Positions 32,597-42,189 of a DNA stretch of 64,000 nt are shown here, one piece after another. The DNA is from Oscillospiraceae bacterium (GTDB taxonomy: Bacteria > Bacillota > Clostridia > Oscillospirales > Ruminococcaceae). A program made the position numbers and the translations under genes. The first letter of the stretch is position 1. Each line of letters begins with the position of its first letter. The stretch lies in the NCBI GenBank assembly GCA_021201235.1, contig JAJQFI010000016.1, positions 186,001 through 250,000 on the forward strand, in the 5' to 3' direction. Below the pieces are notes generated by a model. It was not told where the DNA came from, ran no database searches, and saw only the letters and a list, made by a program, of their open reading frames with translations.

Positions 32597-34381
32597 TCAG
32601 TGAACAACGTCTTCGTCATAGACCGAGGCTTCGGGCATATCCCAAGCGTGGTGGTCGGTATGAAGAAGGTGGTGCGACTTTTCTCCGCAGGGCTCGCCGA
32701 GGTAATCGGCATAGATTGCCTTGATTTCAGGGTTCTCGTGGGAGAAGCGGAGGGTGTTGGCACTGTCGTAGTTATAGAGAACTTGTCCACGTTCAGCGGC
32801 ACGCTCTTCGTTATAGTGAATCGGCTGTCCGCCGCCTCCGACGCATCCACCCGGGCACGCCATGACTTCGACGAACTGGTATTCAACCTCGCCACGACGG
32901 ATGGCACGGATGAGTCTGCGGGCGTTTCCGAGACCATTTACGACCGCCGCCTTAACGGTGATTCCGGCTACGTTATATTCAGCCTCTGTCCAGGGCTTGT
33001 TGCTTCCGAGAGCACGAACCGCCTTGAATGTCTTGTCAGCGTTCGGGTTCTCGCCTGTGAGGATATAGTAGCAGGTTCTGAGAGCCGCTTCCATAACGCC
33101 GCCGGTGGTTCCGAAGATAACTGCGGCACCGGTGCCGGTTCCGAGAGGTGAATCGAAATCTTCCTCGGGAAGAGCCGCAACGTCAATCTGGTCAGCCTTA
33201 ATCATGCGGCACATCTCACGGGTAGTGAGCGAGAAGTCAACGTCCTTGCAACCCTCTGCGGCATCGTTGATGCTCGGGATGTCGAGCTCCGCCTTCTTTG
33301 CGGTGCACGGCATGATAGAGACGCAGACGATGTTTTCGGGGGCAACGCCAAGCTTCTCTGCAAAGTAGGACTTGGTGACTGCGCCGAACATCTGCTGAGG
33401 AGATTTTGCGGTTGAAAGTTGGTCGACCATGTCGGGGTACTGGCTCTTTAAGAACCTGACCCAACCGGGACAGCAGGATGTGAACATCGGGAACTTCTTG
33501 CCCTCCGGGTGCTTGATTCTCTCAAGGAACTCGGTGCCCTCCTCCATGATGGTGAGGTCGGCGGAGAAGTTGGTGTCGAAGACATAGTCAAATCCGACGC
33601 GTCTCAATGCCGCGGCAAGACGCTTTTCTGTGGCGACTTCGGGAGAAAGTCCGAACTCCTCGCCCCATGCGGCTCTTACGGCAGGTGCAACCTGAACGAC
33701 TGTAATCTTGTCCTTGTCGTCCATTACGCCGTTTACGCCGATGATGGCTTCCGTGTCGTCACGGGTGTGAAGCGCGTTAGTCGGGCAATGAGTGATACAC
33801 TGACCGCAGAAAGCGCAATCGGCTTCCTCGAGACTGCGGTGGTTGGAAACGCCGACGGTTGTGTGGGCGCCGGTTCCGACCATGTCCCAGATTCCGAGGG
33901 ACTGAACCTTCTGGCAGACGGAAACGCAACGATAGCACTTGATGCACTTGCTCTCATCACGGATTATTGGGAGCTTGTCGTTCCACTTGTCTTCGGGATA
34001 TTCGGTCTTGAAGCTGAGAGAATCGCTTATACGGAGAGTCGAAGCGACGTTCTGGAGCTGGCAGTTATTGTTACGGAAGCAGGAAGGACAGTTGACTCTG
34101 TGCTGTGAAAGAAGGAGCTCGATGTTGGTCTTCCTTGCTTCTCTTACTCTTGTTGTATCTGTATGGATTACCATGCCCTCGCTGACGACGTTGTCGCAGG
34201 CGGTTACGAGGTGGTCGATTCCCTCGACCTCGACGATGCAGGCACGGCAGGCACCGATTTCGTTTATGCCCTTGAGGAAGCAGAGTGTGGGGATATTGAT
34301 GCCGGCAACCTTGGCGGCATCAAGTATCGACGTTCCTTCCTCAACCTGAACGGGGGTGTTGTTGATTGTTACGTTTACCAC
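32597..34381 (-). CDS. hydA: [FeFe] hydrogenase catalytic subunit
   Basis: A protein of about 594 residues that makes or uses H2. In order: [2Fe-2S] domain (CFLKGINEIGACRACIVEVEG in parts, about 33-53), the His-Cys3 segment HRVNCPSCFRNNNC, two [4Fe-4S] motifs (CIKCYRCVSVC and CAFCGQCITHCP), and the H-cluster domain with TSCCPGW, MPCTAKKAE and EVMACPGGCVGGGGQP. This fits the NAD(P)H-linked multi-subunit type. The start is GTG at 34381, behind GGAGGGAG. It overlaps the stop of the upstream subunit by a few bases; the longer open frame to 34438 lies wholly inside that gene. Confidence 0.96.
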   Translation of the reverse strand: MVNVTINNTPVQVEEGTSILDAAKVAGINIPTLCFLKGINEIGACRACIVEVEGIDHLVTACDNVVSEGMVIHTDTTRVREARKTNIELLLSQHRVNCPSCFRNNNCQLQNVASTLRISDSLSFKTEYPEDKWNDKLPIIRDESKCIKCYRCVSVCQKVQSLGIWDMVGTGAHTTVGVSNHRSLEEADCAFCGQCITHCPTNALHTRDDTEAIIGVNGVMDDKDKITVVQVAPAVRAAWGEEFGLSPEVATEKRLAAALRRVGFDYVFDTNFSADLTIMEEGTEFLERIKHPEGKKFPMFTSCCPGWVRFLKSQYPDMVDQLSTAKSPQQMFGAVTKSYFAEKLGVAPENIVCVSIMPCTAKKAELDIPSINDAAEGCKDVDFSLTTREMCRMIKADQIDVAALPEEDFDSPLGTGTGAAVIFGTTGGVMEAALRTCYYILTGENPNADKTFKAVRALGSNKPWTEAEYNVAGITVKAAVVNGLGNARRLIRAIRRGEVEYQFVEVMACPGGCVGGGGQPIHYNEERAAERGQVLYNYDSANTLRFSHENPEIKAIYADYLGEPCGEKSHHLLHTDHHAWDMPEASVYDEDVVH

Positions 34382-36210
34382 TGTTTCTTTCTCCCTCCCT
34401 TGAAGATTCCGCAACCGAAGTGGTCGCAACGGAGGCATCTTGATGCTTCCTGCATTGATTCCTTTTCGGTCATCTTGATTTCCATCAGCTCGAAGTCGTT
34501 TCTGCGCTCACCGGGCTCACGCTCGGACATGTTGATTCTGCCGCAGTACGGACGATCTGTAAGATTCGGGTCGGGAATTTCGACGTCGGTGGTGATCGTA
34601 TGGTTATAACCGAGGTAGTAGTCGATATTTGCGGCGGCAACCTTTCCGGCAGCGATAGCTCTTATAGCTGTCTTAGGACCGGTTACGCAGTCGCCTCCGG
34701 CAAATACGCCGGGAGCATTCTCGACCTCTGTCCAGTCGTCGCCCTTGATGACGCCTCTGACAACCGGGATTCCGGAGGATTCGAGCTTATAGAAGTCGAT
34801 TCCCTGTCCGATTGCAACGAGAACTACGTCGCAGGGGATTCTCTTGTCCTCGAGTCCCGAAGGAGAAGGATTCATTCTGCCGCCCTTTATGAGACCGGGC
34901 ATATAGGGAGTAGCCCAGAGAGCCGCAACCTTGCCTTCTTCATCGGTCTCTATCTTGAGAGGAGCGTGGAGGTCAACCATGATTGCACCTTCTGCGATTG
35001 CACCGTCGACTTCTTCGGGAAGAGCTGTCATGTCCTCCTTACGGCGACGATAGACGATTGAAACGCTTTCGGCACCGCATCTGATAGCGGAACGTGTGCA
35101 GTCCATGGCGACATTGCCGCCACCGATTACGCAGACCTTCTTGCCGGTGAGGTCAGGGATATTTCCGTCGCCGATTCCGCCAAGGAAGGAAACCGCAGAC
35201 CAGACGCCCTCGGCGTCCTCGCCCTCGATTCCGACCTTCTTGTCGGTGTGTGCGCCGATTGCGATATATACGGCATCATACTCCTCGCGGAGCTTTTCCA
35301 TTGTGTATTCGCCCTCGCCGACCTTTGTGTTGAGCTTGACCTCAACGCCGGTCGAGAGGATGCAGTCGATATCGCTCTGGAGCCGCTCACGGGGAAGTCT
35401 GTATGCGGGGATGCCATAGATAAGCATTCCGCCGAGCTTCGAGTGCGCCTCGAAAACGGTGCACTGGTGACCCATAAGCTGAAGATAATAAGCACATGAA
35501 AGACCAGAGGGTCCGCCGCCGACGATTGCAACGCGCTTTCCTGTGGACGGAGCGCACTCGGGTGCGGGAACAACCCCTGCTCCCTCAACAGCCGCACGCT
35601 TTAAGCCACGGATATTGACAGGCGCATCAAGAAGGGTCCTGCGGCATCTTGTTTCACAGGGATGCTCGCAAATAAGGGCACAAGCGGTCGGGAACGGGTT
35701 GTCCTTTCTGATGAGCTTGACGGCATCGGCATATCTTCCCTCGCCTACGAGAGCGATATAGCCCGGGATGTCGACACCTGCGGGGCAGTTGCCGACGCAA
35801 GGAATGCTCATCGGAGTTCCGGCGAAGCAGTGGTGCTTCTCGATATGGGATATGTAGTCCTCGCGGAAACCGTCGAGTCCTTTAAGAACCATCTTTGCCG
35901 CCTCGAATCCTATGGCACAGTCAGCCGATTCGGCGATTACATGTGCCAGTTTCTCGATTTTTGAAAGAGTGGAGTCGTCTCCCCTTCCGTTGAGGACATC
36001 CTCCAATAAATTACCCAACTGTGCAAGTCCCACTCTGCATGGTACGCACTTGCCACAGGTCTGGGCGTGGCACATTCTTAAAAAAGCCAGTGTCAGGTCG
36101 ACGGGACAGACATCCGAAGAACTTGCGGCAATACGCCGCTCCATGTCCTTATAAATGCCCTCGACAACCGTCTCCGCACGACTTTCAGTCATTAGTGCAA
36201 GTCTTGACAA
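34375..36210 (-). CDS. Hydrogenase-associated NAD(P)H oxidoreductase: NuoF-type Fe-S tail fused to a GltD-like flavoprotein
   Basis: About 611 residues with the TTG at 36210 (nine bases behind AGGAAG) as start. Residues about 35-100 carry the NuoF C-terminal [4Fe-4S] motif TCGKCVPCRVGLAQL without the NuoF FMN domain. Residues about 115-600 are a GltD/NfnB-like flavoprotein: CVGNCPAGVDIPGYI and CEHPCETRCRR for Fe-S, two Rossmann motifs VAIVGGGPSGLSCAY and VCVIGGGNVAMDC, and FAGGDCVTGPKTAIRA for FAD. It is translationally coupled to hydA, so it most likely passes NAD(P)H electrons to the hydrogenase. No separate HydB/HydC-like genes are present. Confidence 0.88.
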   Translation of the reverse strand: MSRLALMTESRAETVVEGIYKDMERRIAASSSDVCPVDLTLAFLRMCHAQTCGKCVPCRVGLAQLGNLLEDVLNGRGDDSTLSKIEKLAHVIAESADCAIGFEAAKMVLKGLDGFREDYISHIEKHHCFAGTPMSIPCVGNCPAGVDIPGYIALVGEGRYADAVKLIRKDNPFPTACALICEHPCETRCRRTLLDAPVNIRGLKRAAVEGAGVVPAPECAPSTGKRVAIVGGGPSGLSCAYYLQLMGHQCTVFEAHSKLGGMLIYGIPAYRLPRERLQSDIDCILSTGVEVKLNTKVGEGEYTMEKLREEYDAVYIAIGAHTDKKVGIEGEDAEGVWSAVSFLGGIGDGNIPDLTGKKVCVIGGGNVAMDCTRSAIRCGAESVSIVYRRRKEDMTALPEEVDGAIAEGAIMVDLHAPLKIETDEEGKVAALWATPYMPGLIKGGRMNPSPSGLEDKRIPCDVVLVAIGQGIDFYKLESSGIPVVRGVIKGDDWTEVENAPGVFAGGDCVTGPKTAIRAIAAGKVAAANIDYYLGYNHTITTDVEIPDPNLTDRPYCGRINMSEREPGERRNDFELMEIKMTEKESMQEASRCLRCDHFGCGIFKGGRKKQW

Positions 36211-36238
36211 GCTATCACGCTTCCTTTCATACAAACAT

Positions 36239-36277
36239 TTCGACAAATATTATAACACTATTTTTAAATATTTGCAA
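36239..36277 (-). promoter_or_regulatory. Hydrogenase promoter with a Spo0A box at the start site
   Basis: On the minus strand, TTGCAA (36277-36272), 17 bases, TATAAT (36254-36249). ATTTGTCGAAATG, containing TGTCGAA (36245-36239), follows directly. Confidence 0.7.
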
Positions 36278-36319
36278 GGGCAGTACTGCAAATTGACGAA
36301 ATAATTTGTAAAAGATAGG

Positions 36320-36348
36320 TTGACAGATTGGACGACAGATGATATAAT
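36320..36348 (+). promoter_or_regulatory. Promoter of the HigBA-like pair
   Basis: Perfect TTGACA (36320-36325), 17 bases, TATAAT (36343-36348), divergent from the hydrogenase promoter. Confidence 0.85.
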
Positions 36349-36387
36349 GATATGGGATAAAACAAATAAGCGAGGATGGCAGGACGG

Positions 36388-36738
36388 ATGGACATAATAT
36401 TCTACAAGACAACAGACGGCGAAGAACCGGTGAAGGAGTTTATATCAAACTTGGAGCCGAAAATGCGAGCGAGGGTTTACCGAAGCATCGACCTTCTTTC
36501 GGAATTCGGGCACATGCTGAGAGAGCCTGATTCAAAATCCCTCGGAGATGGAATTTTTGAACTCAGAATAAAACAAGGCAGTGACATCTCAAGAGTTTTG
36601 TATTTCTTCTACATCGGAGACAAAGCAGTACTGACAAATGGCTTTGTGAAGAAAACGCAGAAAACACCGGCAAATGTAATTGAACGAGCCAAGAAATACC
36701 GTGCAGATTTTTTAGACAGAGAGGAGAATCTGAAATGA
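36388..36738 (+). CDS. HigB-like (RelE superfamily, Gp49-type) toxin
   Basis: About 116 residues from the ATG at 36388 (an ATG four codons earlier has the ribosome-like GAGG too close). Family pattern: DGEEPVKEFISNL, KSLGDGIFELRIKQGSDISRVLYFF and VLTNGFVKKTQKTPANVIERAKKYRADF. HigB toxins cut mRNA on the ribosome. Toxin-first order and the 4-base overlap with the XRE antitoxin are as in HigBA loci. Confidence 0.9.
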   Translation: MDIIFYKTTDGEEPVKEFISNLEPKMRARVYRSIDLLSEFGHMLREPDSKSLGDGIFELRIKQGSDISRVLYFFYIGDKAVLTNGFVKKTQKTPANVIERAKKYRADFLDREENLK

Positions 36739-37031
36739 GTGAATATACAAACTACAAAGACTTTTTAGCCGAACAGCTTGAAGACCCCGAAATCAAAGCG
36801 GAGTATGACGCTCTTGAATCAGAGTTTGAAATTAAGAGAGCCTTGATAAAAGCCCGTAGCGTTTCAGGCATCACACAGCAGGAGCTTTCAAAGAGAACCG
36901 GCATAAATCAAAGCGACATCAGTAAGCTTGAGCAAGGCAAGGGCAACCCTTCCCTGAAAACACTTCAAAGGCTTGCAGAAGGGCTTGGAATGAGAATGGA
37001 AATCAAGTTTGTACCCGTTGACAGGGCATAA
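36735..37031 (+). CDS. HigA-like XRE antitoxin
   Basis: A 98-residue protein with a Cro/C1 helix-turn-helix in the C-terminal half (SGITQQELSKRTGINQSDIS, about 45-64). The N-terminal part (YNDFL-like TNYKDFLAEQLEDPEIKAEYD) fits toxin-binding HigA proteins. It overlaps the toxin gene by ATGA and is expected to repress its own promoter with the toxin. Confidence 0.9.
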   Translation: MSEYTNYKDFLAEQLEDPEIKAEYDALESEFEIKRALIKARSVSGITQQELSKRTGINQSDISKLEQGKGNPSLKTLQRLAEGLGMRMEIKFVPVDRA

Positions 37032-37038
37032 CAAACGA

Positions 37039-37073
37039 GCCGCATAGCTGTATACGCAGTTATGCGGTTTTTA
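37039..37073 (+). terminator. Terminator of the HigBA-like pair
   Basis: CCGCATA...TATGCGG followed by TTTTTATT. Confidence 0.8.
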
Positions 37074-37145
37074 TTGTCGCCAATAATACACAAATTCACT
37101 CTTACTGTAAAAATTTTTCTTTCGGTGAAACTTTTTGCCCGAAAA

Positions 37146-37173
37146 TTGACACTATTTAGGTGACGGTTGAAAT
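37146..37173 (+). promoter_or_regulatory. Candidate promoter of the peptide-ABC unit
   Basis: TTGACA (37146-37151), 16 bases, TGAAAT (37168-37173). The -10 is weak, so an activator may be needed. A TTTCAG...CTGAAA hairpin then leads into the ribosome site of the peptide gene. Confidence 0.45.
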
Positions 37174-37209
37174 TTTTCAGCCGAGCGAAAACTGAAAGGA
37201 GTCTTTTTA

Positions 37210-37281
37210 ATGAAAAAAGCAGTATTAATCAGAACAAGTTCGTCTTCTTCGAAAACACATCCGGGTGCTTCTCACCATTAG
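37210..37281 (+). CDS. 23-residue Ser-rich peptide upstream of an ABC exporter
   Basis: ATG at 37210 follows AAAGGAG (37195-37201) at an ideal 8-base distance. The product begins MKKAVLIRT, has a run of five Ser, and ends KTHPGASHH before TAG. It is too short for usual gene callers. The next gene (37393) is a complete ABC exporter in the same orientation with no terminator between. The layout is that of a secreted or modified peptide with its exporter, but no maturase, protease domain or recognised leader motif is visible. I do not recognise the family. It could alternatively be a regulatory leader peptide. The strong ribosome site is the main evidence. Confidence 0.6.
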   Translation: MKKAVLIRTSSSSSKTHPGASHH

Positions 37282-37392
37282 CTATCCCGAATGATGTGTG
37301 ATTAGCCCCCTTAAAAACAGGTCTTATGGTGGTTTGCCAAGTGAACGCAAGCTGTCAACTCGGGAATCTGTTTATGAAAGGACTAATTCGAA

Positions 37393-39174
37393 ATGAAATT
37401 TTTTAACGAACTCAGAAAAACCGCAAACCTCACCCGCTACGCCCTTGTTAATATCATCGGCGGTATCAGAGCCCTGCCCTATATCATGCTGACGCTTCTC
37501 AAGTCGGTCGTAAATGCGGCGGCGCTCGTGTCCTACACCCTCCTCCCCGGCTTCATCATCAACTACCTGATGGCAGGAGAAATCAGAACCGTGGTCATTC
37601 TGGCGGCAACCTTAGTGGCAACGCCGTTTGTGCAGAATTCCGCGAATGCACTGATTACGACTATCGCAGATAATCACAGACATGAGCTGTTTACCGATGC
37701 GGAAGTAGCGTTTGACGACTACAGCTGTCACATTGATTATGAATACTTCGAATCGCCGAAGGTTCTCGACATAAGGAGTCGTGCCTCAAGAGCTCAGGAT
37801 GACGTTTTTGGAGTCGTCGACTGCCTGAACTCGATTCTTTCTTCTGTCATAAGCTTTGTAGTCATTCTGTCGGTAGTCGCCTACATAAATCCGCTGATGG
37901 TTGTGTTCATCCTCGTCATCGTGCTCTTAAACTCGATTCTCACAAAGAGACTGAATGTCAAGAATCACGAAACAGCTTTGAAGCAGGATCATTATTGGAG
38001 AGTTTACTGGGGCGCGAGCTATCAGCTTGAAAACCCGAACTATGCTAAGGAGATAAGACTCTTTGACATCAGCGACATGCTACTTGGCAATCTCCGGAAC
38101 GTCATGAAAACAGGAAACGCTCTTGAGCACGAGAAGACTGTCAACTGGAGCAAGACCACAGTCCTGCAAGCGATTGTCAACATCGTCAAGGACGGAGTTA
38201 TCTATGGGTACTCGATTATCTCGGTGCTCCTGGGCAGGATGGCTATCGGTACTATGTCCATCTATATCAGTGCGGCAAATCAGTTCTCAAGCAACATCGG
38301 AAGCATCGTTAATTCTTATCTGAGCCTGTCGAGGCTCTGCATGGAGGTCGAGGAGTATAAGAAATTCTTCGAGCTTTCGCAGAAACAGCAGTCCTCCGGC
38401 ACCCGTATGCCGAGCTTCGGGAAAAACTCAACTATCGAGTTCAGGAATGTCTCGTTCAAGTATCCGGGAAGCGAGAACTATGCTCTTAAGAACATGAATC
38501 TCACCATCCGTGGCGACGAGAGACTCTGCATCGTCGGAGAGAACGGCTCGGGCAAGTCAACCTTCATCAAGCTTCTTTCGAGACTGTACTTCCCCACTGA
38601 GGGCGAAATTCTCCTTGATGGCGTGAACATCAACGAGTATGATTACAGGGAGTATCAGAATATGTTCTCGGCGGCGTTCCAGGACTTCGAAAAGTTCTAT
38701 CTGCCGCTCTCGAAGAATATCGCGCTCGATAAAGATGTTGACGAGGCAAAGCTTGACAACGTCTGCGAAAGAATCGGGCTTACCGATTTTGTCAGGAAGC
38801 TTCCGCACGGCTACGATTCCGCTATCGACAAGTGGGTTGACGAGGACGGAGTCAACCCCTCCGGCGGCGAGCTCCAGAGAATCTCGATTGCAAGGGCTGT
38901 CTACAGCGACAGGGACATCTATATCCTTGATGAGCCTACTGCCGCGCTCGACCCGAATGCGGAATATGAGATTTACACCCAGTTCCACAACATCATCACC
39001 GACAAGTGCGCTGTTCTTATCACCCACAGACTTTCGGCGGTTCAGTTAGCCGATAAGGTTGCTGTGTTCGAGAACGGGCATGTCGAAGAGTACGGCACGC
39101 ACGATGATCTCTATGCCAGAAAAGGCATCTATACAGAGATGTTTGATAAACAGGCTGAGTTCTATAGGAAATAA
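37393..39174 (+). CDS. ABC exporter (fused membrane and ATPase domains)
   Basis: A 593-residue half-transporter. About six membrane helices lie in residues 25-320. The ATPase domain (about 350-590) has Walker A GENGSGKST, NPSGGELQR as the signature (Asn-Pro before SGG where Leu is usual), ILDEPTAALDP and the HRLSAVQLADKV H-loop. No C39 peptidase domain is present, so any peptide cargo would not be cleaved by this protein in the LanT/ComA manner. Start ATG behind AAAGGA. It probably exports the product of the 23-residue gene, working as a homodimer. A lipid or drug substrate is possible. Confidence 0.9.
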   Translation: MKFFNELRKTANLTRYALVNIIGGIRALPYIMLTLLKSVVNAAALVSYTLLPGFIINYLMAGEIRTVVILAATLVATPFVQNSANALITTIADNHRHELFTDAEVAFDDYSCHIDYEYFESPKVLDIRSRASRAQDDVFGVVDCLNSILSSVISFVVILSVVAYINPLMVVFILVIVLLNSILTKRLNVKNHETALKQDHYWRVYWGASYQLENPNYAKEIRLFDISDMLLGNLRNVMKTGNALEHEKTVNWSKTTVLQAIVNIVKDGVIYGYSIISVLLGRMAIGTMSIYISAANQFSSNIGSIVNSYLSLSRLCMEVEEYKKFFELSQKQQSSGTRMPSFGKNSTIEFRNVSFKYPGSENYALKNMNLTIRGDERLCIVGENGSGKSTFIKLLSRLYFPTEGEILLDGVNINEYDYREYQNMFSAAFQDFEKFYLPLSKNIALDKDVDEAKLDNVCERIGLTDFVRKLPHGYDSAIDKWVDEDGVNPSGGELQRISIARAVYSDRDIYILDEPTAALDPNAEYEIYTQFHNIITDKCAVLITHRLSAVQLADKVAVFENGHVEEYGTHDDLYARKGIYTEMFDKQAEFYRK

Positions 39175-39177
39175 ATC

Positions 39178-39206
39178 TTGACATAGCGAAAGCTATGTGA
39201 TATAAT
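39178..39206 (+). promoter_or_regulatory. Promoter of the Crp-importer operon with an operator dyad
   Basis: TTGACA (39178-39183), 17 bases, TATAAT (39201-39206). The spacer is filled by the perfect dyad ACATAGC-GAAA-GCTATGT (39181-39198), well placed for a repressor, plausibly the Crp/Fnr protein encoded next. Confidence 0.75.
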
Positions 39207-39250
39207 CACCTCGTATTTGTATCATTTGAGACAAAAACGGGGTGATTTTT

Positions 39251-39904
39251 TTGACTGGGAAGAAGATTGCGGATATCTTAAGCTCGACTTTTCTTTTTGA
39301 GGGAGTTTCTGATGAGGAGATTCTTGAGATTACTCGTGAGTTTTCCTGCGATGAGAGAAGCTACCCGAAGGGCGAAGTTATCTTTTCGCCGGAGAAGTTC
39401 GAGAGGGTCTTGGGAGTTGTGCTTTCCGGGAGGATTGCCGTTACAAAGGGCAGGCTTTCGGTGAGCGAGCTGTCGCGAGGGAGCCTCTTCGGGGCGGCGG
39501 CGCTCTTCAATAACGAGCCGGAATACGCCTCTACCCTTACGGCGAAAACCGCCGCAACGGTGCTCTACTTCAGTCAGGAATCAGTCTTGACGCTCATCAA
39601 CCGCGACGAGAGAATCAGGATGAACTATATCCGGTATCTTTCTGCCCGGATTCGGTTCCTGTCCGAGAAGGTCGACACCTTAGGAGAAATCAGCAGTGAA
39701 AAAAGACTTGCAAGGTTTCTCCTGAAGAACGCCGACGACAGAGGATATGTCAGCGGCTGTAACTTCTCCGAAATTGCCGGTAGGCTTGGAATCGGGAGGG
39801 CTTCGCTCTACCGTGAGCTTGCAAAGCTTGAGGAAGCGGGAGTCATCCGAAAAGACAGGAACGGCGTTGAAATCTTAGACCCCGAAAAATTGTCTCAGCC
39901 ATAA
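39251..39904 (+). CDS. Crp/Fnr-family regulator
   Basis: About 217 residues. The TTG at 39251 sits at a proper distance behind GGGGTG; a GTG three codons earlier is the alternative. An N-terminal cyclic-nucleotide-binding-like barrel (about 10-125) precedes the C-terminal Crp helix-turn-helix (NFSEIAGRLGIGRASLYREL, about 178-197). No CxxC/Cys cluster for an Fe-S centre is seen at the N-terminus, so it is not a classical oxygen-sensing Fnr. It is probably autoregulated and controls the importer behind it. Confidence 0.9.
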   Translation: MTGKKIADILSSTFLFEGVSDEEILEITREFSCDERSYPKGEVIFSPEKFERVLGVVLSGRIAVTKGRLSVSELSRGSLFGAAALFNNEPEYASTLTAKTAATVLYFSQESVLTLINRDERIRMNYIRYLSARIRFLSEKVDTLGEISSEKRLARFLLKNADDRGYVSGCNFSEIAGRLGIGRASLYRELAKLEEAGVIRKDRNGVEILDPEKLSQP

Positions 39905-39919
39905 AGAAAGGAAATCGTC

Positions 39920-40894
39920 ATGACTAAATTCAAGAAAATTATCGCACTTGTAACCGCACTTATGCTTGCTCTTGCCCTCTGCGGGTGTTCAAGCGAGGAG
40001 GTCGGAACTGAGATCAATATCGCTGTTCTGTCCGGTCCCACCGGAATCGGCGCCGTTTACCTTATGGAAGCAAACGATGCCGGCGAAACCACCAACACAT
40101 ATAACTTCACCGTCAGCTCAGCGAACGACGACGTTGTCGCCGGTCTCACAAGCGGTGAATATGACATTGCGGCTGTTGCCACGAACGTTGCGGCGAATCT
40201 TTACAACAAGACCGACGGAGCTATCCAGATTTGCGCTCTCAACACCTACGGCGTGCTCTATATCCTCGAGAACGGCGACTCAATCCAGAGCGTTGAAGAC
40301 CTTCGGGGCAAGACCATCTATGCCACCGGTCAGGGTGCAAACCCCGAATATGTCCTTGACTATATCCTCACCCAGAACGGCATCGACCCGGAAAATGACG
40401 TGACTATCGAGTTTATGGATTCGGACGCACTTGTCACACTGATGGCAACGGGCGAGGCTGAAATCTGCATGCTCCCCGTTCCCGCTGTCACAAGCGTTAT
40501 GATCCAGAATTCCGACCTGAGAATCGCTCTTGACCTGACCGAGGAGTGGAACAATGTAACCGACGAAGGCGAGCTCACGATGGGATGTATCGTCGTAAGA
40601 ACCGAATTTGCCGAAGAGAATCCAGAAGCGGTTGAGGCGTTTCTTGAGGAGTACGCCGAGTCGATTGAAAACGTACAGGCTAATGTCGAGCATGCCGCAG
40701 AGCTCTGCGAAACCTATGGAATCGTTGCGAAAGCGGCTGTTGCCCAGAAGGCTATCCCCGACTGTAACCTTTGCTGTATCACCGGCGATGAGATAAGAAC
40801 CACTATTGAGCCCTATTATACTGTACTTTACAATGCTAACGCCTCGTCCATAGGCGGAGCTATCCCCGATGAAGACTTCTACTTTGCGAAATAA
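39920..40894 (+). CDS. Substrate-binding lipoprotein of an SsuA/TauA/NMT1-type importer
   Basis: A 324-residue protein with a signal sequence and lipobox ending at Cys23 (LALCGC). The periplasmic-binding fold has the family pattern GEYDIAAVATNVAANLYNK, EDLRGKTIYATGQGANPEYVLDYIL in parts, and TGEAEICMLPVPAVT. Relatives bind sulfonates, taurine, nitrate, bicarbonate or thiamine precursors. The ligand cannot be told from sequence. The 3' end overlaps the permease gene by 26 bases. Confidence 0.9.
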   Translation: MTKFKKIIALVTALMLALALCGCSSEEVGTEINIAVLSGPTGIGAVYLMEANDAGETTNTYNFTVSSANDDVVAGLTSGEYDIAAVATNVAANLYNKTDGAIQICALNTYGVLYILENGDSIQSVEDLRGKTIYATGQGANPEYVLDYILTQNGIDPENDVTIEFMDSDALVTLMATGEAEICMLPVPAVTSVMIQNSDLRIALDLTEEWNNVTDEGELTMGCIVVRTEFAEENPEAVEAFLEEYAESIENVQANVEHAAELCETYGIVAKAAVAQKAIPDCNLCCITGDEIRTTIEPYYTVLYNANASSIGGAIPDEDFYFAK

Positions 40895-41639
40895 TCGGGT
40901 TTTAAGAATACTCCTCCCGACCGTCTTCTGGCTTTTGGTCTGGCAGATTGCCGCCACGGTCGTCGGGCAGGAGCTTCTGATCCCCACACCGATTGCAGTT
41001 CTGAAGCGGTTCTGCGAGCTTGTTGTCACATCCGATTTCTGGATTGCCGCAGGGATGAGCTTACTCAGGATTTTTGTTGGGGCATTCATAGGCGGTTTGC
41101 TTGGAATTATCTTGGCGGCTTTAACCTGTAGATTCTCGATAGTCGACATGATAGTCTCCCCTGCCCTTCGGGTCATCAGGGCAATTCCCGTGGCGAGCTT
41201 TATAATCTTGGTTCTCCTCTGGGTGAGAAAAGGTGCAGTTCCGGCTGTTATTTCCGGGCTGATGGTTATGCCGGTCATGTGGGAAAGCGTCACGGTCGGC
41301 ATCAGGTCTGTCGACCCACAGCTTCTTGAGATGGCGGATTGCTACGGTATGAGTTGGACGGCGAAAATCAGACGGATATATCTGCCGTCGGTGAAGCCGA
41401 ATCTCATCGGCGGAATCCGCAACTGCGTCGGGCTGGCGTGGAAATCGGGAGTTGCGGCGGAGGTGCTTTGCCTTCCGAAGAACGCCGTCGGCTCACAGGT
41501 CTACTATTCGAAGATTTACCTCGAGACGCCGTCGCTTTTTGCGTGGACGATAACGGTTGTGCTTCTTTCACTGATACTCGAAAAGCTCATTTTTCTCATT
41601 CTGAGAGACAAGAAAGCCGGTGACAGTCCTGAAAATTGA
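40869..41639 (+). CDS. Permease of the SsuC/TauC-type importer
   Basis: A 256-residue BPD-type permease. About six helices, with the EAA-like loop EMADCYGMSWTAKIRRIYLPSVKPNLIGG (in parts EMADCYGMSWTAKI and RRIYLPSVKPNL) that docks on the ATPase. The start is ATG at 40869 inside the lipoprotein gene; a TTG five codons later is possible. Confidence 0.92.
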   Translation: MKTSTLRNNRVLRILLPTVFWLLVWQIAATVVGQELLIPTPIAVLKRFCELVVTSDFWIAAGMSLLRIFVGAFIGGLLGIILAALTCRFSIVDMIVSPALRVIRAIPVASFIILVLLWVRKGAVPAVISGLMVMPVMWESVTVGIRSVDPQLLEMADCYGMSWTAKIRRIYLPSVKPNLIGGIRNCVGLAWKSGVAAEVLCLPKNAVGSQVYYSKIYLETPSLFAWTITVVLLSLILEKLIFLILRDKKAGDSPEN

Positions 41640-42189
41640 GAATCTTACATTTTGCTACAGCGAAAAGCCAGTTTTCGAGAGCTTCTCGCTCGACCTGCCC
41701 GACAGCGGCATCACCGCGATTTCCGGGGAATCCGGTCGCGGAAAGACGACGCTTCTCCGGCTCATTGCCGGGCTCGAAAAGCCGCAGAGCGGCACTCTTG
41801 AAGCTCCGAAGCCCGAAGACATCGCTGTCATGTTTCAGGAGAACAGGCTTCTCCCCTGCCTCAATGTTTCGGGACAGCTTGAGGCGGTGCTTCCAAAGAA
41901 TACCGATGTTGCAAAATATCTCGAAGCCGTTGAGCTTGAAGCCGAGGCGCACACTGCGATTGACAAGCTATCGGGAGGCATGAAGCGAAGAGTTTCTCTT
42001 GCGAGGTGCCTCGCATTTGCGGAAGTCTTCGAAAAAAAGTTAATCCTGCTCGACGAGCCGTTCACAGGAATTGACCCCGAAAGAGTGCACAGGATTATGG
42101 AGTTCATACGAAACCTTTCTATTCCCGTTATCTATTCGGCACATGACAGAGAAGCACTGGAGCTTGCTGATATTACGATATCTATATGA
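41620..42189 (+). CDS. ATPase of the SsuB/TauB-type importer
   Basis: A 189-residue compact ATPase with GTG start overlapping the permease. Walker A SGESGRGKTT at about 37-46, Q-loop MFQENRLLPCLNV, signature LSGGMKRRVSLARC, Walker B LILLDEPFTGID and switch His in SAHDREALELAD. It is shorter than typical SsuB (about 250) because the Q-loop-to-signature region and C-terminus are trimmed; all motifs are intact. Confidence 0.92.
   Translation: MTVLKIENLTFCYSEKPVFESFSLDLPDSGITAISGESGRGKTTLLRLIAGLEKPQSGTLEAPKPEDIAVMFQENRLLPCLNVSGQLEAVLPKNTDVAKYLEAVELEAEAHTAIDKLSGGMKRRVSLARCLAFAEVFEKKLILLDEPFTGIDPERVHRIMEFIRNLSIPVIYSAHDREALELADITISI

Follow-up and report, generated by a model that had tools for sequence, protein, structure and literature searches.

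A conserved short reading frame ahead of an ABC exporter gene in Oscillospiraceae, a probable translation attenuator

Introduction

Does the 23-codon reading frame that stands directly ahead of an ABC exporter gene in an Oscillospiraceae bacterium encode a peptide to be exported, or does it regulate the exporter? Regulatory upstream open reading frames (uORFs) are often missed by gene callers because they are too short. The frame lies in a stretch of 64,000 nucleotides, all of it referred to here as the window, and a sequence-only reading of this DNA had proposed a peptide-export or signalling cassette. The comparisons and folding predictions described below make it fairly likely that the frame is instead a regulatory uORF which, together with a structured leader RNA, controls translation of the next gene, that of the ABC exporter, in the way of the erm, toiL and bmrB leaders rather than as export cargo.

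The leader reading frame and its distribution

The leader ORF comprises 23 codons and a TAG stop at 37210-37281 on the + strand (MKKAVLIRTSSSSSKTHPGASHH), and is preceded, at a spacing of 8 bases, by the Shine-Dalgarno (SD) sequence AAAGGAG at 37195-37201. The Ser-rich 23-residue frame, its ideal ribosome site and the exporter had all been recognised in the sequence-only reading and were found as placed there, with slight corrections of coordinates; its start coordinate, 37146, lies 64 bases 5′ of the leader ORF. Inspection by eye revealed neither a double-glycine leader nor a hydrophobic stretch in the peptide, and no sigma-70-like promoter was recognised directly 5′ of the leader on the + strand.

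Among the 31 genomes of the genus, 11 carry the leader (E ≤ 6.1e-18), always at one syntenic locus, with the same SD and with the frame open in every case. The remaining genomes show either short, chance-like matches only (8) or no match at all (12). Type 1 leaders, present in eight genomes, follow the pattern MKKAV[LS][IV]xxSSS[SNR]S[KQ]THPG[AT]SHH, and type 2 leaders, present in three (G304, G306 and G308), the pattern MKT[KR][IT]SVK[IV]NISS[LF]NSSTHPG[AV]SHH. The two differ in ORF length by 6 bases, which keeps the reading frame. The THPGxSHH end is constant in all 11, as are Ser10, Ser11 and Ser14 (numbered as in type 1). The occurrence in 11 of 31 genomes at this E value, the frame that is always kept and the type difference of a multiple of three bases place the leader ORF beyond chance and confirm it, on sequence grounds, as a real conserved element adjoining the exporter. 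These 11 leaders come from close kin and amount in effect to two types, so they are not independent sequences; moreover, the seven close exporter loci described below recur among the 11 leader genomes, and the sample is therefore 11 and not 18. The named records of the exporter loci are metagenome-assembled genomes labelled Ruminococcus sp. or Oscillospiraceae bacterium.

Beyond the genus, the leader was not found in the genomes sampled. A search with the peptide in 295 genomes of the order gave 13 matches at E ≤ 1, of which that in its own genome alone was convincing (the other 12 had E ≥ 0.2). At the DNA level, 251 of 396 genomes of the family had some match at E ≤ 1, strong only in the genome of origin and in G302, the next best being of 25 bases (E 5.3e-5). 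A model of the leader RNA, run with stricter filters under which weak matches are lost, hit two of 347 family genomes and one of 295 order genomes, all of its own genus. Pattern scans of viral_contigs for relatives gave no match, and the peptide string THPGASHH does not occur in the literature searched. A comparison of 36200-39400 with Rfam at E ≤ 5 returned rliA (20.2 bits) and salivarius-1 (18.8 bits), both rejected against cut-offs of 50.

The evidence for a short uORF with its own SD is that of sequence and conservation, the SD and the frame being kept in 11 of 11 genomes and the codon tests being mixed. Over the whole leader ORF, amino-acid changes are fewer than expected at random in four of ten type 1 pairs (G000-G309, p 0.003; G000-G303, p 0.008), and the other six, together with all three type 2 pairs, do not fall below 0.05. 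In the last 10 codons, a window picked post hoc, amino-acid changes fall below random placement in six comparisons (p 0.002-0.03). Conservation of the Ser run and of the HH end, with synonymous codon bias, had been suggested as a check of the peptide: the HH end is indeed present in all 11 leaders, and the run of five consecutive Ser only in four (G000, G302, G307 and G301), the others reading SSSNS, SSSRS, SSLNSS or SSFNSS.

The exporter and the neighbouring genes

The presumed regulated gene, at 37393-39174 on the + strand, encodes an ABC exporter of 593 amino acids and has its own SD, AAAGGA, at 37377-37382, which is the same in all 11 leader genomes, including the three loci that lack the exporter. 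Its ATPase is recognised by Pfam as ABC_tran (PF00005, 2.3e-27), with a C-loop SGG motif, and Pfam lists neither an ABC membrane family (E ≤ 0.001) nor a C39 peptidase. MsbA, type I and NHLM exporter families appear, all below cut-off, among the best 25 of 188 NCBIfam families, MsbA being the top match among those listed (232.8 bits; cut-off 602), and these models match the protein from residue 19 on. Since Pfam gives no membrane domain, the assignment of the permease half is based on these below-cutoff NCBIfam matches and on PDB matches that reach there.

A scan of genome_contigs yielded 42 exporter loci. Seven are 88-98% identical to the exporter of the window, and all seven have the peptide directly 5′; the other 35 are 37-63% identical, and the peptide motif was found in none of them. 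Exporter loci lacking the upstream pattern had been named in advance as a refutation, and this is partly borne out, by these distant loci and by the 3 of 11 leader loci that have no exporter. The NPSGG form of the ATPase signature, noted earlier as an oddity, turned out to be ordinary, as 27 of the 30 SGG motifs matched across the 42 loci read PSGGE. Absence of a terminator ahead of the exporter was borne out by a simple scan of 37282-37393, which revealed no terminator-like site.

It is the type 1 leader that stands before the exporter, whose orthologue is present in 8 of the 11 leader genomes, split in one. In that genome (G305, locus L149) the gene consists of a 367-aa N-terminal and a 226-aa C-terminal ORF overlapping by 4 bases, which reflects either a genuine split of the gene or an error of one base in sequencing or assembly.

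Immediately 5′ of the leader, at 36376-37031, lies a pair formed by a RelE/ParE-type toxin (Gp49) and an HTH antitoxin, which comes and goes beside the leader, as it was recognised at some of the 11 loci (toxin cluster at 4, antitoxin cluster at 6). The region 39242-42189 encodes a CRP-family regulator and an SsuABC-like uptake system, and a 12/12 match to a sigma-70 promoter stands ahead of the regulator at 39178-39206. The CRP-family gene is present in exactly the 11 of 31 genus genomes that hold the leader.

Relatives that keep the leader without the exporter

The three genomes with type 2 leaders have no exporter orthologue, and the best relatives elsewhere in those genomes are only 49-50% identical. 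At their loci the same second SD (GAAAGGACTAATTC) precedes a different reading frame, ORF2, of 25-26 codons, which comes directly after the leader and shares the C-terminal end EQEP[LI]LDGLMG (loci L145 in G308, L146 in G304 and L147 in G306). This persistence of leader and second SD before another ORF in 3 of 11 genomes counts for a regulatory role of the leader.

ORF2 was found in only these three of the 31 genus genomes and in none of 297 family genomes; the latter search has no positive control, as the three ORF2 genomes cannot have been among those sampled. Over the whole of ORF2, amino-acid changes are below random between G308 and G304 (p 0.006) and between G308 and G306 (p 0.003), and not between G304 and G306 (p 0.30). 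In its last 11 codons, again a window chosen post hoc, G308 differs from G304 and from G306 by one amino-acid-changing and six synonymous changes each (p 0.0008 in one comparison and printed as 0.0 in the other), and G304 differs from G306 by three synonymous changes and none that alters an amino acid (p 0.04). Because of this pattern of codon changes, mostly synonymous at its end, ORF2 is probably translated. The idea that ORF2 is a fragment of the exporter was discarded, since 11 of 12 alignments did not exceed the best of 30 shuffles and one did (37 against 34).

At L146 (G304), 16 bases from the ORF2 stop match the 3′ end of seven of the eight exporters at 15 of 16 positions, which occurred in 0 of 100 shuffles. 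This remnant of an exporter end, 3′ of the ORF2 stop, suggests that the line of G304 lost its exporter; none was seen after ORF2 in G306 and G308, and the tree of neighbouring proteins is unrooted and in places weakly supported.

Conservation and pairing of the leader RNA

Nucleotide conservation does not end with the leader frame. The 31 bases that follow the stop codon (37282-37312) are all invariant in the seven genomes with a full-length exporter, and 27 of them in all 11; for 37255-37312 the figures are 56 of 58 and 49 of 58, respectively. Within the exporter of the same seven genomes, invariant positions number 66 among the 198 fourfold sites and 1286 among all 1779 sites. A second in-frame TAG occurs 7 codons after the leader stop in all 11 genomes (37282-37305). 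Readthrough of the first stop was considered and rejected, since changes between the two types in this interval alter amino acids (TCC/CCC, TGT/CGT); for the same reason RNA fits the conservation past the stop better than readthrough does, and this stretch is probably RNA-driven.

Six helices with 34 pairs were evaluated in the 11 sequences (10 distinct) against 500 shuffles. Paired cells made up 95.5%, changes on both sides occurred in 8 cells (shuffled mean 2.6) and the helix score was 0.108 (0.071 in shuffles), and no shuffle was as high in any of these three measures. The other two measures are less distinctive: the count of pairs changed on both sides is equalled by 39 of 500 shuffles, and that of pair types by 326 of 500. 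Most of the covariation resides in the variable hairpin P5 (37331-37337 with 37347-37353), which has three covarying pairs. The 5′ hairpin P0 (37164-37170 with 37177-37183), just 5′ of the leader SD, has 2 of 7 pairs changed on both sides in the 11-genome alignment and 81.8% of cells paired.

Hairpin P1 joins 37255-37265, which runs from codon 16 into codon 19 (THPG), to 37286-37289 and 37293-37299, and contains one compensatory pair, which is A-U in six distinct sequences, G-C in three and broken in one (G303). In this pair the synonymous third base of Thr16 (ACA/ACG) covaries with a base past the leader stop. An alternative hairpin, P1′, pairs 37267-37269 and 37272-37280 with 37292-37301 and 37304-37306, and emerges in folds when the P1 arm has its first bases omitted or masked. 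Its 5′ arm consists of the end of the last Ser codon, the two His codons and the first two bases of the stop codon, and it overlaps the 5′ strand of P2; 96.7% of its cells are paired and 9 of its 12 pairs show no variation. The third element, P2/P3, is a clamp over the start of the exporter (37300-37305 with 37383-37388, and 37309-37312 with 37378-37381), which appears in folds and has no variation apart from 3 gaps in one pair. As their pairs hardly vary, P1′ and P2 are not amenable to covariation tests. The constancy of SHH no longer proves a peptide, because P1′ uses the same bases, and that argument was dropped.

According to these predictions, the leader region can form mutually exclusive hairpins (P1, P1′ and P2), one of which covers the exporter start. 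RNAalifold on a longer alignment kept P1 and paired the exporter SD with the leader start region rather than through P2. Another possible pairing, weak and exclusive with P1, would link TCCCGAA (37285-37291) to CTCGGGA (37359-37365); 5 of its 7 pairs are invariant in 11 of 11 genomes, and it has no covariation and is absent from the predicted folds. Taken as a single sequence, the leader of the window is not unusual in fold stability (z -1.45).

Predicted folds with a ribosome on the leader

The likelihood of P2 (GATTAG:CTAATT) was calculated for each codon position of a leader ribosome, with everything up to the first base of the P site plus 15 treated as covered and with codons in type 1 numbering. 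In folds of the downstream RNA only, all 11 leaders give P2 a probability of 0.53-0.89 while the P1 arm is free and of 0.00-0.05 once codon 12 or 13 occupies the P site, a loss attributed to the formation of P1′. It returns by codons 15-17 in 10 of 11 (in G307 only from codon 22), and stands at 0.66-0.89 in every leader when the P site has reached codon 23 or the stop. A second, partial dip is seen in these folds at codons 18-20 in G000, G302, G301 and G300 (0.18-0.41). When four leaders were scanned base by base, the dip spanned at least 3 to 8 hidden arm bases. Shuffling the 45-nt segment of G000 produced such a dip in 2 of 200 cases, with P2 at 0.5 or more at the outset in 169 of 200. The codon in the A site when codon 13 occupies the P site, codon 14, is Ser in 11 of 11.

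When the complete leader is folded and the ribosome footprint masked, P2 does not exceed 0.02 at codons 12-13 in ten leaders, the exception being G303 (0.22-0.25); without a ribosome it is 0.66-0.87 in six leaders only and 0.02-0.28 in the other five, in which its loss accordingly says little.

The consequence for the exporter ribosome site is less uniform. With the downstream RNA only, accessibility of the SD rises from 0.51 to 0.76 in G000, does not move in G303, peaks at codon 17 in G307 and gains modestly in most. With the whole RNA at codons 12-13, it falls in G000 and G302 (from 0.50 and 0.49 to 0.01-0.02), a fall that in G000 stems from new pairing of the SD with the start region of the leader itself; it is low throughout in G307 (0.05 to 0.02), and in the five remaining exporter-type leaders the shift lies between -0.10 and +0.08. 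In the exporter-less leaders it rises, from 0.13 to 0.89 in G308, from 0.02 to 0.71 in G306 and from 0.20 to 0.51 in G304, and is near 0.5 already across several earlier codons. Thus, the change in P2 is well supported in folding and the effect on the exporter ribosome site less so, SD accessibility being a weaker readout than P2.

Proposed mechanism and alternative explanations

On the basis of these models, the leader is probably a new regulatory uORF that acts as a translation attenuator. With the P1 arm free, or with the leader ribosome at the stop codon, GATTAG:CTAATT (P2) would close the exporter start. A ribosome that paused in the Ser-rich stretch, with its P site at codons 12-13, would hide the initial bases of the P1 arm; P1′ would then form and take part of GATTAGC, P2 would be lost and the exporter start would be freed. 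The pause itself is inferred, with a ribosome-binding drug or a shortage of seryl-tRNA as candidate causes, and the predicted direction of the response would be higher expression after the pause.

The cargo explanation, in which the 23-mer would be a secreted peptide (a signal or the precursor of a RiPP) exported by the ABC protein, accounts for the gene order fixed in 8 of 11 genomes and would also be consistent with the scarcity of amino-acid changes in the last 10 codons (six comparisons, p 0.002-0.03, in that post hoc window). It draws further support from distant relatives, as a two-gene cluster, whose larger gene encodes a radical SAM protein according to Pfam at the one locus tested (L056), recurs before 6 of the 35 distant exporters, with Cys-rich short ORFs, detected by eye, directly 5′ of the exporter in some. 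Nevertheless, a cargo peptide would need neither nucleotide conservation that crosses the stop codon nor its agreement with RNA pairing; the SHH-stop codons double as an arm of P1′, so that pairing could explain their constancy; and the leader is kept in three of 11 genomes that have no exporter. The earlier statement that there is no maturation enzyme or C39 domain agrees with the scan of seven window proteins at 36376-42189 (Pfam: 4 of the 7), a stretch that begins after the two large genes at 32597-36246, and a missing modification enzyme, like the missing double-glycine leader or hydrophobic stretch, speaks against cargo. As regards a RiPP or bacteriocin precursor, no maturation family is found among those seven proteins and the exporter orthologue is missing in 3 of 11 leader genomes. 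Cargo is consequently unlikely, and conservation past the stop, RNA pairing and the three leaders without exporter also count against the peptide-export or signalling cassette first proposed. The six distant loci behind the two-gene cluster (L056, L069, L070, L071, L082 and L085), some with a Cys-rich ORF, are candidate RiPP loci in their own right.

A second possibility is that the leader is a structured cis-acting RNA in which the small ORF is incidental and goes untranslated. The strong RNA conservation, last residues that may be dictated by the RNA, and codon tests in which six of ten type 1 and all three type 2 pairs do not reach significance would suit it; the invariant SD, the frame open in 11 of 11, the in-frame 6-base difference, the deficit of amino-acid changes in four of the ten type 1 pairs and the lack of an Rfam family at cut-off do not, and it appears quite improbable. 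Transcription attenuation like that of BmrB, in which the leader ribosome would govern a terminator rather than the exporter ribosome site, is matched by a gene order as in bmrB-bmrCD (in the portion of PMC4191407 consulted), but a simple consensus scan recognised no terminator-like stem with a T run between leader and exporter, and the exporter start takes part in the alternative helices, which renders it very improbable.

Relation to known leaders and significance

Translation attenuation by the leader has its closest counterparts in systems already described. In leaders of the ermC type one stem-loop hides the downstream ribosome site, and the gene behind encodes a resistance methylase, whereas here it encodes an ABC exporter. 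As far as the consulted part of PMC4191407 describes them, translation of ermC-type leader peptides chooses between stem-loops, as proposed here; in the same part, bmrB of the Bacillus subtilis bmrCD operon resembles the present leader in having alternative stem-loops immediately ahead of genes for ABC transport, and differs in its length of 53 aa, its intrinsic terminator, its action on transcription and the two exporter genes that follow it, against one here. In Escherichia coli, stalled ribosomes on the toiL leader of topAI-yjhQ have been proposed to free an occluded downstream ribosome site (PMC12121999, in the part consulted). That leader is likewise a short uORF with RNA structure over the downstream ribosome site, but has toxin-antitoxin genes behind it, and its stalling and regulation have been studied by experiment, while here they are predicted from sequence (same part of PMC12121999).

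Of most interest in this locus family are the relatives that lack the exporter and have the conserved ORF2; they constitute a natural experiment, in which three relatives keep the leader with another short ORF behind it. It is possible, though rather doubtful, that the leader serves as a portable control cassette, which uses its Ser-rich stretch to sense translation and, in one species group, drives the ORF2 micropeptide instead of the exporter; were this true, the same sensor would have swapped its output gene, with the two ribosome sites and the RNA switch retained. The uORF gives a prediction of an RNA switch in Clostridia known here from metagenome assemblies alone, and, should the ribosome pause in the Ser-rich stretch, the leader would respond to the availability of serine or to a ribosome-binding drug and tie that signal to an ABC exporter.
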